Below are positions 2,553 through 55,337 of a stretch of DNA of 64,000 nucleotides, in pieces. The DNA is taken from NCBI RefSeq assembly GCF_018228765.1, contig NZ_CP073695.1:1612001-1676000 (forward strand). The letters are read 5' to 3'. Positions within the stretch are counted from its first letter, which is position 1. The number at the start of each line of letters is the position of its first letter. The translations under genes were made by a program, and so were the position numbers. The stretch is from Halorubrum ruber. Lineage in GTDB: Archaea; Halobacteriota; Halobacteria; Halobacteriales; Haloferacaceae. The notes under the pieces were generated by a model. It saw nothing but the letters and a program-made list of their open reading frames with translations. It made no database searches and had not been told where the DNA came from.

Positions 2553-2760
2553 CGCGGGCAGAGAGGGAAAACGTCGTCGGACGGCGTTCCGCCGGCGGTG
2601 CGCGGCGGTTCGCGTGTCGTCTCGTGTTTCGGTAGCACGGCTCTGCTGAAATCCTCTTCTTCAGACATATTCTCGTCTGTAACGTCTGGTCGCTGAAGCG
2701 TGCTTCTTGATCTATCGCGGGAGTTGGTGTCGTACGTCGCTCAGTGTGATGGCGTGGGTA
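2553..2760. other. intergenic stretch without a recognised gene
   Basis: I see no convincing reading frame here. The stretch is less G+C rich than the genes around it and ends where the TATA-box pair of structured element A begins. A short piece near 2638-2675 faintly resembles the end of an insertion sequence, but there is no matching second end and no transposase remnant. Confidence 0.5.
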
Positions 2761-2802
2761 TTTATAAGCCAGATCGCGGTGTTGCTGTCGGCTATTTATA
2801 AG
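2761..2802 (+). promoter_or_regulatory. tandem TATA-box pair heading element A
   Basis: Two TTTATAAG boxes lie 34 bp apart (TTATAA cores at 2762 and 2796). The second is 35 bp before the CAAAG that opens the element's first stem at 2831, so a transcript would start about 5-10 nt before that stem by normal haloarchaeal spacing. Element E has the same 34-bp pair, with the shared motifs CGGTGTT and GTC-GCT between the boxes, so the pair was copied with the element. Promoter activity is inferred. Confidence 0.55.
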
Positions 2803-2823
2803 TGGTCGACGCTGCTGCGGTGA

Positions 2824-3101
2824 ACGTCTTCAAAGCCCCAGTCGCGAGGCGGCCGCACGCTCGCTGCGCTCCTCACTCAGTCGCTATCGCTCCCTCGTTG
2901 CGGTGCTTACGTCGCCTGCGGCCGCCTCGCGACTGCCCCTTTGAGTCCCGCCCCGCACAGCACCGCAACCGCACCTCACGCCTCCCCAGCCTCGCGGTTC
3001 GCTCGGGGCTCCCTCCGGTCGCCCACGTCGCTCACCGCGTCCCTCGCGGGCTGGCTCGCGGCCTCCGCTTCGCTCCGGCCGCTCGCAGGCGCGCCACCGC
3101 A
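2824..3101 (+). ncRNA. structured intergenic element A (candidate novel RNA)
   Basis: Copy 1 of 6. The first helix pairs TCAAAG (2830-2835) with CTTTGA (2939-2944). An internal loop of CCCC opposite GCCC follows, then 17 perfect pairs between AGTCGCGAGGCGGCCGC (2840-2856) and its complement (2918-2934). The helix apex holds the conserved GGTGCTTACGTCGCCT. Downstream come the unpaired CCTCCCCAGCCTCG motif, a second hairpin based on CGCGGT/ACCGCG, and a third hairpin ending in GGCGCGCCACCGC. Open frames inside it are by-products of its composition. It lies between the divergent methyltransferase and GMC oxidoreductase genes. Confidence 0.6.
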
Positions 3102-3308
3102 CCGGCTGCCATTTGTAAGCGTTCGTCGCCGTTGATCACGGCCATTTAAATACTGAATCGCGCCCGGCGATCTGCGATACTCACTCGCGCTATCGCTCGC
3201 CGCTACCCCTGTACTGAGCGATTAGGGTGCGAAAATATCAATTTCTGAGGATTTTAACAAAGCCGGTAGCACGGGTACACTTAATTGTCCGACCGTCCAC
3301 GACTTTCC

Positions 3309-12138: not shown

Positions 12139-12174
12139 GCGGGTGACGATGGATTCAGAGTCGCTGTGACGGCG

Positions 12175-12295
12175 ACCACCGCCAAAGCCCCAGCCGTTCG
12201 CTTATAAACAGTTGGTCCCGGATCGACGGAGAACACCATCAAAGCCCCAGCCGTTCGCTTATAAATAGTTGATCCCGAATCAACGGAGAACACCA
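12175..12295 (+). repeat. tandem TATA-bearing repeat units heading element B
   Basis: Two copies of a 57-bp unit precede element B. Each contains CAAAGCCCCAGCCGTTCGC, a TTATAA box (12202 and 12259), and an AGTTG-TCCCG then CGGAGAACACCATC tail. Each unit is therefore the promoter plus the opening of the stem, repeated without the rest of the element. The last box is 38 bp before the CAAAG at 12297. The few differences between units suggest recent duplication. Confidence 0.7.
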
Positions 12296-12600
12296 TCAAA
12301 GCCCCAGCCGTGAGGCGGCCGCACGCTCGCTGTCGCCCGAAAATCTCCGATTTTCGGGATGACGAGACGCCTCCGGCGTCTCGAACCACGCGCTTCAGTC
12401 GCTCGCTTCGCTCGCTCCCTCCAGTGCTTACGTCGCCTGCGGCCGCCTCACGGCTGCCCCTTTGAGTCCCACCCCGAACCGCACCGCAGCCTCAAGCCTC
12501 CCCAGCCTCGTTGACCGCCCTCCGCGTTGCTCCGGGCGGTCGACTCCCTCGCACGCGCTCCTCGCGGCCTATCGGCCGCTCGCAGGCGCGCGCCACCGCA
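12290..12600 (+). ncRNA. structured intergenic element B (candidate novel RNA)
   Basis: Copy 2 of 6. The first stem is AGCCGTGAGGCGGCCGC with its complement ending CCTCACGGCT. Relative to copy A it has swapped two base pairs on both sides, so the pairing is kept. CAAAG/CTTTG and the CCCC/GCCC internal loop are unchanged. The apical loop carries two extra hairpins, CCCGAAAATC/GATTTTCGGG and GAGACGCC/GGCGTCTC, each with a TCC loop. The second hairpin arms are GACCGCCC/GGGCGGTC. The third ends in GCGCGCGCCACCGC. Two AT-rich boxes follow, before the convergent decarboxylase gene. Confidence 0.6.
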
Positions 12601-12628
12601 CGGCGGTTCTTATTTAAAAAGGCGTTAT

Positions 12629-13627
12629 TTAAAACAGCGCCTCGCTCTCGTCAAGGACGCGCGCCGGGCCGCCGACCTCCCAGACGTCGGCGTCGATGCC
12701 GATCTCGGCGATCCGGCTCTCCACCTCGTCGACGTGGTCGGCGAGCGTGTTCACGTACACCGAGGCGCCTGTGTCCGTCGAGAAGTAGACGGGGACGCCC
12801 TCCTCCCGGAGCTCGCGGACCGCGTTGAACACCGCGATCGTCTCGGGCTGCCAGTACACCCACCCCGCGGGGCCGGTCATCGTCGTCGCCGTCAGGGAGA
12901 GGGAGTCGTGCTCGGCCGTCTCGAAGATCCGGTCGAACTCGCCCGCGCGGAGCGCGTCGGTCATCTCGACCAGCTGGTCCTGGACGTGCGCGGTCCGCGC
13001 CTGCATCATGTGGCTCGCGGCGGCCTCGCGGTGCGCCTCCTCGGTCTCTTTATAAGCGGGGACGTGGGCGGCGACGATCCGGAGGTCCTCCTCGGGGTCG
13101 AAGCCGTCCTCGCTCACGCCGGTGTCGAGGCGGTAGGAGCGGCAGTCCTCGTCGTTGAGGCCGGCGTCGAGCCGCGAGTACGCGCCCGTGACGGCGCGGG
13201 CCGCGGAGGAGGAGCCGCGGCGGGCGACGGTGGAGACCTCCGGGAGCGACATGTCGAGCCCCGCGGCCTCGACGAGGGCGAGCGCCGCGGCCGCGAACCC
13301 GGACGAGGAGGAGCCGAAGCCGATGTTCGACGGGAAGGAGTTCTCGCTCTCTAACCGCACCGCGGCGTCGACGCCCGCCAGCTCGCGGACGTGGTCGACG
13401 ACCATGTCGATGCGCTCGGCGGCACGCCCGTCGACCGCCTCGCCGCCGATGACGTAGGTGTCCTCGCTCGCGTCGGGCTGCCACTCGACGGTGGTCGTCG
13501 TCGCGGTCGGGGCGGTACAGAGGCTGATGCTGTCGTGGTACGGGAGCCGCAGTTCCTCGTCGCGCATCCCGTGGTACTTGACGAGCCCCTGGATCGGGTG
13601 GGCTCGCGCGGTGGCCTTGCCGGTCAT
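12629..13627 (-). CDS. phosphomevalonate decarboxylase (haloarchaeal mevalonate pathway)
   Basis: The 332-residue GHMP-fold protein opens with ARAHPIQGLVKYHGMRD and carries the glycine/serine-rich phosphate loop FPSNIGFGSSSSGFAAAAL near residues 97-115. The segment RRGSSSAARAVTGAYSRLD near 135-153 is typical of mevalonate diphosphate decarboxylase relatives. In Haloferax volcanii the homologue was shown to decarboxylate mevalonate 5-phosphate to isopentenyl phosphate, the branch used before isopentenyl phosphate kinase; I transfer that role here. Databases often name this gene mvaD. The product feeds archaeal ether-lipid isoprenoids. It converges on element B. Confidence 0.88.
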   Translation of the reverse strand: MTGKATARAHPIQGLVKYHGMRDEELRLPYHDSISLCTAPTATTTTVEWQPDASEDTYVIGGEAVDGRAAERIDMVVDHVRELAGVDAAVRLESENSFPSNIGFGSSSSGFAAAALALVEAAGLDMSLPEVSTVARRGSSSAARAVTGAYSRLDAGLNDEDCRSYRLDTGVSEDGFDPEEDLRIVAAHVPAYKETEEAHREAAASHMMQARTAHVQDQLVEMTDALRAGEFDRIFETAEHDSLSLTATTMTGPAGWVYWQPETIAVFNAVRELREEGVPVYFSTDTGASVYVNTLADHVDEVESRIAEIGIDADVWEVGGPARVLDESEALF

Positions 13628-18240: not shown

Positions 18241-18490
18241 GGCGGTGGCGCGTGCCTCCGAACGCCCGCAGGGCGTGAGGAGCACGCGCGAGGGAGTCAG
18301 TCGCCGGAGCGAAGCGGAGGCGACTGACGAGGCTGGGGAGGCGTGAGGCGCGATGCCGTGCGGTGCGGGGCGGGACTCAAAGGGGCAGCCGTGAGGCCGC
18401 AGTAGGCGACGTAAGCACCGCAGCGAGCGGAGCGAGCGAGGAGCGCAACGAGCGTACTGCGGCCTCACGGCTGGGGCTTTGGAGGTGGTC
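18241..18490 (-). ncRNA. structured intergenic element C (candidate novel RNA, leftward)
   Basis: Copy 3 of 6, read leftward from about 18490. CAAAG (18481-18477) opens the first stem. AGCCGTGAGGCCGCAGTA then pairs perfectly with its complement, an 18-bp arm whose distal half differs from copies A and B on both strands. The internal loop and the apical GGTGCTTACGTCGCCT are conserved. The second hairpin has arms GTCAGTCGCC/GGCGACTGAC. The third ends in GGCACGCGCCACCGC. The copy lies between the convergent ThuA-like and TIM-barrel genes. Confidence 0.6.
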
Positions 18491-18580
18491 GCCGCCGATC
18501 CGTAGTGAGCTATTTATAAGTAAGCGGCTGGGGCTTTGGAGGTGGTCGCCGCCGATCTCCGGTCAATCATTTATAAACTG
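18477..18580 (-). repeat. tandem TATA-bearing repeat units heading element C
   Basis: Read leftward, two 57-bp units each hold a TTATAA box (at 18514-18519 and 18571-18576), a GATCGGCGGCGACCACC-like stretch, and CAAAGCCCCAGCCG. The inner unit runs into the full element; the outer one continues only as far as the next TATA box. The inner box is 38 bp from the CAAAG of the stem, the same distance as in copies B and F. Confidence 0.7.
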
Positions 18581-20226: not shown

Positions 20227-20514
20227 CTTATAAATAGCCGATCGAGACAAACACCACCGAAGCCCCAGCCGCGAGGCGAACACACGCTCGGGGCGGTCCT
20301 CGCTCGTTCGCTCCGCTCACTCGCTGCGGTCCTGCCTTCGCCTGCGTTCGCCTCGCGGCTGCCCCTTCGAGTCCCGCCCCGCACCGCACAGCACCACAGC
20401 CTCACACCTCCCCAGCCTCGTCAGCCGGCCTCCGCTTCGCTCCGGCCGGCTGACTCCCTCGCACGCGCTCCTCGTGGCCGCCGAGGGCGGCCACTCGGAG
20501 GCGCGCGCCACCGC
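20227..20514 (+). ncRNA. structured intergenic element D (candidate novel RNA) with its TATA box
   Basis: Copy 4 of 6. A single TTATAA box at 20228 lies 30 bp before the stem. Here the closing pairs are CGAAG/CTTCG instead of CAAAG/CTTTG, a change made on both strands. AGCCGCGAGGCGAAC pairs perfectly with GTTCGCCTCGCGGCT around the invariant CCCC/GCCC loop. The second hairpin arms are GTCAGCCGGCC/GGCCGGCTGAC. The third has GTGGCCGCC/GGCGGCCAC inside the outer arm and ends in GCGCGCGCCACCGC. Two AT boxes follow at 20540 and 20571. It lies between thioredoxin and cysK. Confidence 0.6.
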
Positions 20515-26919: not shown

Positions 26920-27175
26920 ACGACCGCCAAAGCCCCAGTCGCGAGGCGGGCGCACGCTCGCTGCGCTCCTCGGTCGTTCGCTTCGCTCACTCCCTCCGGT
27001 GCTTACGTCGCCTGCGCCCGCCTCGCGACTGCCCCTTTGAGTCCCGCCCCGCACCGCGCCGCCCAGCACCTCAGGCCTCCCCAGCCTCGCGGTTCGCGCT
27101 CTGCGAGCGCTCACCGCGTCCCTCGCGGACTGGCTCGCGGCCGCCGGTGGCGGCCGCTCACAGGCGCGCCACCGC
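26920..27175 (+). ncRNA. structured intergenic element E (candidate novel RNA)
   Basis: Copy 5 of 6. CAAAG opens the stem at 26928. AGTCGCGAGGCGGGCGCA pairs perfectly with TGCGCCCGCCTCGCGACT; compared with copy A, one distal pair is flipped (C-G to G-C) on both sides. The loop and apex motifs are conserved. The second hairpin is CGCGGT/ACCGCG, like copy A, with an inner stem GAGCGC/GCGCTC-like arrangement. The third has GCGGCCGCC/GGCGGCCGC inside and ends GGCGCGCCACCGC. AT boxes follow at about 27181 and 27213. The next gene is convergent. Confidence 0.6.
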
Positions 27176-54760: not shown

Positions 54761-55080
54761 TTTATAAACAGTTGCCGCTGAGCTGAGAGCGACGCTCTTC
54801 GCATCGCGAGGTTATTTATAAATGAGCGGCCGCGGACCACCGGTATCCCGCCGAAGTTTCAGTCGCCTGTTTATAAACCGACGCTCGCAGATCGACAGAG
54901 ATCACCGCCAAGGCCCTACTCGCCCGTTTATAAATAATCGCAGTGAATCGGCGGCGAACACCGGCAAAGCCCCAGCCGCTCGCTTATAAATTTCCGTCAA
55001 CGGATCGGCGACGAACTCCTCCAAAGCCCCAGCCGCTCGCTTATAAATTTCCGTCAACGGATCGGCGACGAACTCCTCCA
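54761..55080 (+). repeat. six-unit TATA-bearing tandem array heading element F
   Basis: TTATAA boxes occur at 54762, 54816, 54871, 54928, 54984 and 55041, spaced 54-57 bp. The last two units are almost identical (CAAAGCCCCAGCCGCTCGC, TTATAAATTTCCGTC, GATCGGCGACGAACTCCTC) and the earlier ones are increasingly divergent. At the third, CAAGGCCCTACTCG is a decayed form of the CAAAGCCCC motif. This looks like repeated duplication of the promoter and stem opening, with decay outward. Confidence 0.75.
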
Positions 55081-55337
55081 AAGCCCCAGCCGCGAGGACT
55101 CGCGCGGCTCGCTGCGCGCTTCGGTCGCTCACTCCGTTCGCTCCCTCCAGTGCTTGCGTCGCCGTGCTTCGTCCTCGCGACTGCCCCTTTGAGCCCCGCC
55201 CCGCACAGCGACCGCACCTCACACCTCCCCAGCCTCGTCAGTCGCCTCCGCTTCGCTCCGGCGACTGACTCCCTCGCGCGGTGCCGTTCGCGGCCGCCGT
55301 GGGCGGCCGCTCACGGGCACGCGCCAACAGCACCGCT
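55072..55337 (+). ncRNA. structured intergenic element F (candidate novel RNA)
   Basis: Copy 6 of 6. CAAAG opens the stem at 55079. AGCCGCGAGGAC pairs with GTCCTCGCGACT with one C-A mismatch, and the distal arm continues as GCGCGGC with GCCGTGC (one G-U). So pairing is kept although the distal sequence differs from every other copy. The second hairpin is GTCAGTCGCC/GGCGACTGAC. The third has GCGGCCGCC/GGCGGCCGC inside and ends GGCACGCGCCA. AT boxes at 55341 and 55373 follow. Mch lies downstream. Confidence 0.6.

Follow-up and report, generated by a model that had tools for sequence, protein, structure and literature searches.

A dispersed hairpin repeat of haloarchaea conserves pairing on one strand while its stem sequences vary

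Six hairpin repeats in the Halorubrum ruber window

The window, the 64-kb stretch of Halorubrum ruber DNA analysed here, carries six copies (A to F) of a non-coding repeat; the element lies on the plus strand in five, on the minus strand in copy C. In 143 copies extracted from 120 fetched genomic stretches, the variable H1 stem is accompanied by a linker rich in C, by two further hairpins, H2 and H3, and by the end motif GCGCCACCGC; the left end of the element features a 57-bp partial unit repeated in tandem (1 to 7 units in total). H1 measures ~104–113 bp, has long arms and is the core of the element, bordered on its two sides by the short motifs GAACACCTCSAAAGCCCC and GCCCCTTTSAGTCCC; whole elements are multi-hairpin structures of 113–350 nt. 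H1 is joined to two further hairpins in Halorubrum, as in several other genera. Copy A resides in a MITE featuring terminal inverted repeats and an 8-bp target-site duplication, which we take to be of the IS6 type from the duplication and general knowledge, rather than from a transposase match. The features are listed below by window position; for repeat modules, the strand given is the one on which the fold is read.

2631–2638, left target-site duplication GGTAGCAC, 8 bp
2639–3264, IS6-type MITE carrying copy A, 626 bp, with terminal inverted repeats
2639–2655, left end of the MITE, GGCTCTGCTGAAATCCT
2831–2943, minus, copy A H1 (CAAAG-CCC-CAG...CTG-CCC-CTTTG on the plus strand), from folding and inverted repeat
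2933–2952, minus, copy A motif M2 (CTGCCCCTTTGAGTCCCGCC on the plus strand), at which the C-rich linker begins
2980–2994, minus, copy A linker motif GCCTCCCCAGCCTCG
2980–3100, minus, copy A linker motif, H2 and H3, through the end motif
3091–3100, minus, copy A end motif GCGCCACCGC
3248–3264, right end of the MITE, AGGATTTTAACAAAGCC
3265–3272, right target-site duplication GGTAGCAC, 8 bp
12183–12296, minus, copy B, two additional 57-bp tandem units (TTATAA box and CAAAGCCCCAG)
12297–12464, minus, copy B H1, apical loop holding a two-hairpin micro-insert
12465–12599, minus, copy B linker, H2 and H3, as far as GCGCCACCGC
18242–18377, plus, copy C linker, H2 and H3
18378–18481, plus, copy C H1 (element on the minus strand)
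18482–18538, plus, copy C, one additional 57-bp unit
20258–20369, minus, copy D H1, CGAAG/CTTCG variant
20370–20514, minus, copy D linker, H2 and H3
26928–27039, minus, copy E H1
27040–27175, minus, copy E linker, H2 and H3
54965–55078, minus, copy F, two additional 57-bp units
55079–55191, minus, copy F H1, in which the C.A mismatch becomes G.U on the minus strand
55192–55331, minus, copy F linker, H2 and H3

Two-hairpin micro-inserts of ~53 bp (e.g. ...TGGCAGCCGGCGGC..GCCGCCGGCGACT) are found within elements, at sites differing from one species to another. They reside in the loop of copy B (window 12332–12390 region) and in the stretches L288, L290, L145 and L150, and resemble one small mobile repeat attacking another. 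In stretch L107 the apical part of H1 is inverted, and the arms at either side are intact.

TTATAA boxes are located at fixed positions at both ends of Halorubrum copies. A start on the top strand would fit the left box; from the right box, transcription would begin within H3. No TTATAA box was seen beside copies read from other genera, and the boxes were for this reason dropped as proof of transcription.

Pairing and strand of H1

The initial annotation described H1 arms which change together with their partners. Re-reading of the sequence recovered arms and partners of copies A, B, D, E and F as reported, and RNA folding indicates that the stem of copy C, on the minus strand, pairs as well. 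The change of CAAAG/CTTTG to CGAAG/CTTCG is present on both arms of copy D, and copy F has the single C.A mismatch described. The distal parts were each said to find their own complement. Outside the loop, pairing is perfect at 23 positions in A, B and E; D has one C.A in the distal stem, and in F the distal part beyond the C.A is out of register and forms an internal loop. The unpaired loop is as constant as claimed, but is a 3x3 CCC/CCC loop, in the context CAAAG-CCC-CAG/CTG-CCC-CTTTG, and not CCCC/GCCC. H1 pairing is not due to chance: against shuffled sequence, the functional strand folded as RNA gives z-scores of -7.0 (A), -6.3 (C), -6.2 (E), -3.6 (D) and -3.2 (F), and copy A also emerged as an inverted repeat.

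Pairing was scored at stem positions 8–19 in 168 distinct in-register arm pairs from the same genome and other Halorubrum. In all, 1926 Watson-Crick pairs (~96%) were counted against 90 others (54 C.A, 10 G.T, 26 of other types), and the CCC/CCC loop deviates at 2 of 504 position pairs. In 35 diverse sequences, two-sided changes were found at 22 of 37 pairs. Two-sided cells, which like the other counts are not independent because copies share ancestry, number 152 against 40.6 +/- 6.2 in shuffled sets, none of 500 shuffles reaching the observed value, and only 6–28 in slid-structure controls; sliding the partner by 1–3 columns lowers pairing from 96% to 32–43%.

The pattern extends beyond the genus. 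A covariance model was built on the 35 Halorubrum H1 sequences and then run on genomes of the family. In 94 distinct non-Halorubrum copies, none of which was used in building the model, pairing occurs in 95.4% of cells (37–48% in slid controls) and two-sided changes at 29 of 37 pairs, in an alignment which is fitted to the model and hence biased in its favour. Two-sided cells are 665, compared with 193 +/- 13 after shuffling and no more than 104 after sliding. The loop G residues of the bottom strand are kept in 91–94 of the 94 copies, and the CCC/CCC mismatch is almost invariant also in 15 non-Halorubrum genera. Outer pairs differ by genus, being CAAAG/CTTTG in Halorubrum and GAAAG/CTTTC in others. 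Covariation of the hairpin lies above controls, as for structured RNAs, and maintenance of a structure of varying sequence around an invariant unpaired motif, proposed in the initial annotation, is strongly supported by the 168 arm pairs, the shuffled and slid controls, and the other genera. Covariation between upstream spacer and linker is weak (best mutual information 0.06 bits) and is not claimed.

At locus B, an orthologous paired change (GGC/GCC to AGC/GCT; in full, GAGGCGGCCGC/GCGGCCGCCTC to GAGGCAGCCGC/GCGGCTGCCTC) distinguishes the genome analysed from a near relative. More distant same-locus copies are usually as similar to other copies as to the ortholog, suggesting that conversion or re-insertion contributes; same-locus comparisons cannot separate these processes from in-place selection.

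The annotation had interpreted the stems as selected for structure around a recognition loop. Structure and loop stand, but the conserved fold sits on the complement of the strand which had been read. Mismatch asymmetry, G.A columns and fold stability identify the functional single strand as minus for A, B, D, E and F, plus for C. C.A outnumber G.T mismatches on the H1 top strand in Halorubrum (54:10, with 25 of the 54 C.A cells at one position), and C.A read from the complement is G.U; the bottom-strand H1 ratio of G.T to A.C in the other genera is 65:20. In H2, 113 of 116 non-wobble mismatches are C.T/T.C on the top strand, i.e. tandem G.A on the bottom one. In the apical helix, 2-bp steps alternate with GA/GA to form a ladder whose GA/GA columns keep their G and A, and on the same strand the internal loop reads GGG/GGG. 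The bottom fold is more stable in 35 of 35 sequences. G>A changes are slightly in excess in the left spacer (0.136 vs 0.084), and the mutational strand bias in this unpaired region is too small to account for the mismatch asymmetry.

Distribution, context and mobility

Each of two independent motifs marks 192 places in the whole Halorubrum genome (3.02 Mb), and the family occupies roughly 2% of the chromosome. Only 23 pairs of copies from this genome reach 88% identity over 200 bp. Exact motif matches among named genomes are nearly all from Halorubrum; the repeat is present in 30 of 30 genomes of the genus sampled, in 8 to ~190 copies by motif. Covariance-model matches extend to 89 of 119 genomes of the family, and to 21 of 28 genera. 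The motif has 3 matches in 2.9 million viral contigs, so the repeat is not a viral feature. A 20-kb stretch of one genome (G015, contig C2, 2714–2734 kb) groups several copies, every one of them on the same strand.

All copies with context (141 of 141) are intergenic, mostly at gene 3' ends, and neighbouring genes are convergent, same-strand or divergent in 53, 69 and 19 cases, respectively. Orientation shows no preference between same-strand genes (39 vs 30), nor does it follow any pattern over the length of the chromosome (runs z +1.2; chi2 20.4 over 21 bins). The inconsistent orientation relative to the upstream gene speaks against a transcription terminator. Occupancy varies: one species may have a copy at a locus where another has none, and some sites filled here are vacant or contain a small gene elsewhere, which resembles the deletion-coupled insertions described in Haloquadratum (PMC3119063). 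The element is not a gene-linked regulator, as denoted by the lack of orientation bias, the variable occupancy and the location of copy A in a MITE; instead of a small set of regulatory stems, there are ~192 copies, at least partly carried by mobile elements. At the site of copy B (window 12140–12630), flanked by photolyase and diphosphomevalonate decarboxylase genes, other Halorubrum have a small gene-like stretch instead (L292, L293, L294, L299).

Several other copies also reside in IS6-type MITEs with near-identical ends. The same ends enclose unrelated cargo in L379, L385 and L388, at 427 kb, 2334 kb and 1085 kb of the same genome, where GGCTCTGTTGAAATCC ends delimit MITEs of varied cargo; no full transposon was found among four GGCTCTGTTGAAATCC-ended elements read out. 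L379 apparently interrupts a transposase-like gene, and is flanked by the 8-bp duplication TTGCGATC. The family as a whole has no uniform MITE ends. Terminal repeats or duplications are found in only some of the 143 copies, and are not recognisable in most Halorubrum ones. Mobility is directly seen only for MITE-borne Halorubrum copies. Back-to-back inverted pairs, with 25 to 370 bp between partners, account for about half of the copies examined from other genera; some pairs feature terminal repeats, one a 9-bp duplication. In the copies examined, neither a transposase nor a reverse transcriptase nor any further partner was found linked to the element.

Among 15 plasmids examined from outside Halorubrum, 13 (stretches L368–L372, L451–L454, L456–L458, L460) have the hairpin ~400–550 bp upstream of a gene for an RPA-like OB-fold 'DNA-binding protein', and its functional strand is antisense to this gene. 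The noncoding stretch between hairpin and gene is conserved in the two plasmids compared. In the Halorubrum genome analysed here, the protein is represented solely by a distant relative encoded on the chromosome.

Explanations and relation to known repeats

The family is fairly probably an old, non-autonomous dispersed element, the folded strand being the recognition structure of a putative trans-acting factor, with RNA favoured over single-stranded DNA. Spread throughout haloarchaea, the element would have the ~113-nt H1 hairpin as its core. The complement strand would act as a folded single strand featuring the long stem, the GGG/GGG loop and an apical ladder built from 2-bp steps and tandem G.A pairs; a putative protein would recognise it through loop, ladder and base motifs, and copies would spread, or persist, only while folding. 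The plasmid OB-fold gene offers a lead to such a factor. The folded molecule is somewhat more likely to be RNA than single-stranded DNA; covariation does not identify it as RNA, since single-stranded DNA would leave the same signature. A haloarchaea-wide mobile structured RNA, with several hairpins and up to ~190 copies, spreading and kept via its fold, and with a GGG/GGG internal loop that might fold into a quadruplex or make copies pair with each other in a potassium-rich cytoplasm, is rather unlikely. With the quadruplex option of ViennaRNA, minimum-energy folds of five bottom-strand sequences lack a quadruplex, so this part of the idea remains speculative.

There is some, limited likelihood that the hairpin works as single-stranded DNA, recognised in a strand-specific manner during replication by an HUH-type enzyme such as an IS200/IS605 TnpA or a RAYT, in the manner of PATEs and REPs. 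The fold is specific to one strand, G.T and tandem G.A pairs are stable in DNA too, and plasmid hairpins adjoin the RPA-like OB-fold gene. Haloarchaeal PATEs, in addition, feature near-terminal palindromes like IS605-type elements (PMC3119063). Lagging-strand insertion, however, should result in the chromosomal orientation bias which is missing here; inverted pairs place one hairpin on each strand, and no linked TnpA was found. Paired changes might also arise by hairpin-templated correction, i.e. template switching in the palindrome, with no selection on a folded molecule. Entire arms are replaced and yet match, and micro-insert hairpins and the inverted apical loop in L107 indicate that palindromes recombine; but correction should erase the CCC/CCC mismatch, nearly invariant in Halorubrum and 15 other genera, and be strand-neutral, whereas observed mismatches are strongly biased to one strand. 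It is thus disfavoured, and very unlikely.

A cis-acting element kept for the benefit of the host, as a terminator, a 3' end stabiliser or a REP-like chromosomal site, would explain why repeats reside only between genes, convergent neighbours exceed divergent ones, and the same loci are filled in many species. This is decidedly unlikely, given the lack of orientation preference among same-strand genes, the range of copy number among species of one genus, loci which are empty or gene-holding in relatives, and hairpins with no T-run following. That terminal repeats alone matter and internal hairpins are passengers, as in an ordinary MITE family, fits copy A and the several others found inside IS6-type MITEs of near-identical ends, but is quite improbable: the same ends carry unrelated cargo, most copies lack them, and passenger hairpins would decay, whereas pairing and loop are kept across genera.

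Rfam has no match in the window, nor was any found among 4227 Rfam families; at E 0.1, five loci gave nothing except a sub-threshold miRNA match outside the element. No description of the hairpin family was found in the literature searched. HEARO/omega-RNA, GOLLD and ROOL have a conserved fold and widespread covariation, and some are linked to mobile elements. The hairpin family differs from them in reaching ~190 copies per genome. Bacterial REPs and BIMEs are likewise dispersed, intergenic, palindromic and enriched downstream of genes, but REPs are single hairpins of 20–40 nt, whereas elements here measure 113–350 nt and have multiple hairpins with conserved non-canonical internal loops; with an H1 of ~113 nt joined to H2 and H3, the family was not assigned to REP/BIME. 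Though copy A is inside an IS6-type MITE, the hairpin core is independent of MITE ends and far more widespread.

The closest descriptions concern Haloquadratum. PATEs are palindrome-associated transposable elements with near-terminal palindromes like IS605 ends (PMC3119063). As the hairpin family, they are non-coding, high-copy, palindromic and without transposase, and are related to single-strand-DNA transposons. In contrast to PATEs, no IS605-type partner was found near the copies read, the ends of most copies being undefined, and arm sequences are hypervariable while pairing is kept. SMR-A elements (HqIRS42/43/55) measure ~110 bp, feature prominent inverted repeats and no target duplication, and occur in tens of copies; the origin of their mobility is obscure, and SMR copies of one type are commonly >95% identical (PMC3119063). 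Compared by description only, SMR-A resembles H1 in size and inverted repeats, but not in identity among copies, H1 arms being hypervariable; no duplication was found around H1 itself. We rate the family as a kind of transposase-free dispersed palindromic repeat, unusual in conserving structure over sequence.

The movement of archaeal transposase-free repeats has been called enigmatic (PMC3119063), and the family bears on how such repeats (PATEs, SMRs, MITEs) move. It recurs in most haloarchaeal genera examined, yet is absent from Rfam, and gives a testable structure, in terms of strand, stems, G.A ladder and GGG/GGG loop, for seeking the recognising protein. Covariation so deep within one genome is unusual, and the ~190 dispersed copies make a natural mutagenesis experiment on a single fold, in which, as in most related genera, the shape of one strand is preserved while the stem sequences change.
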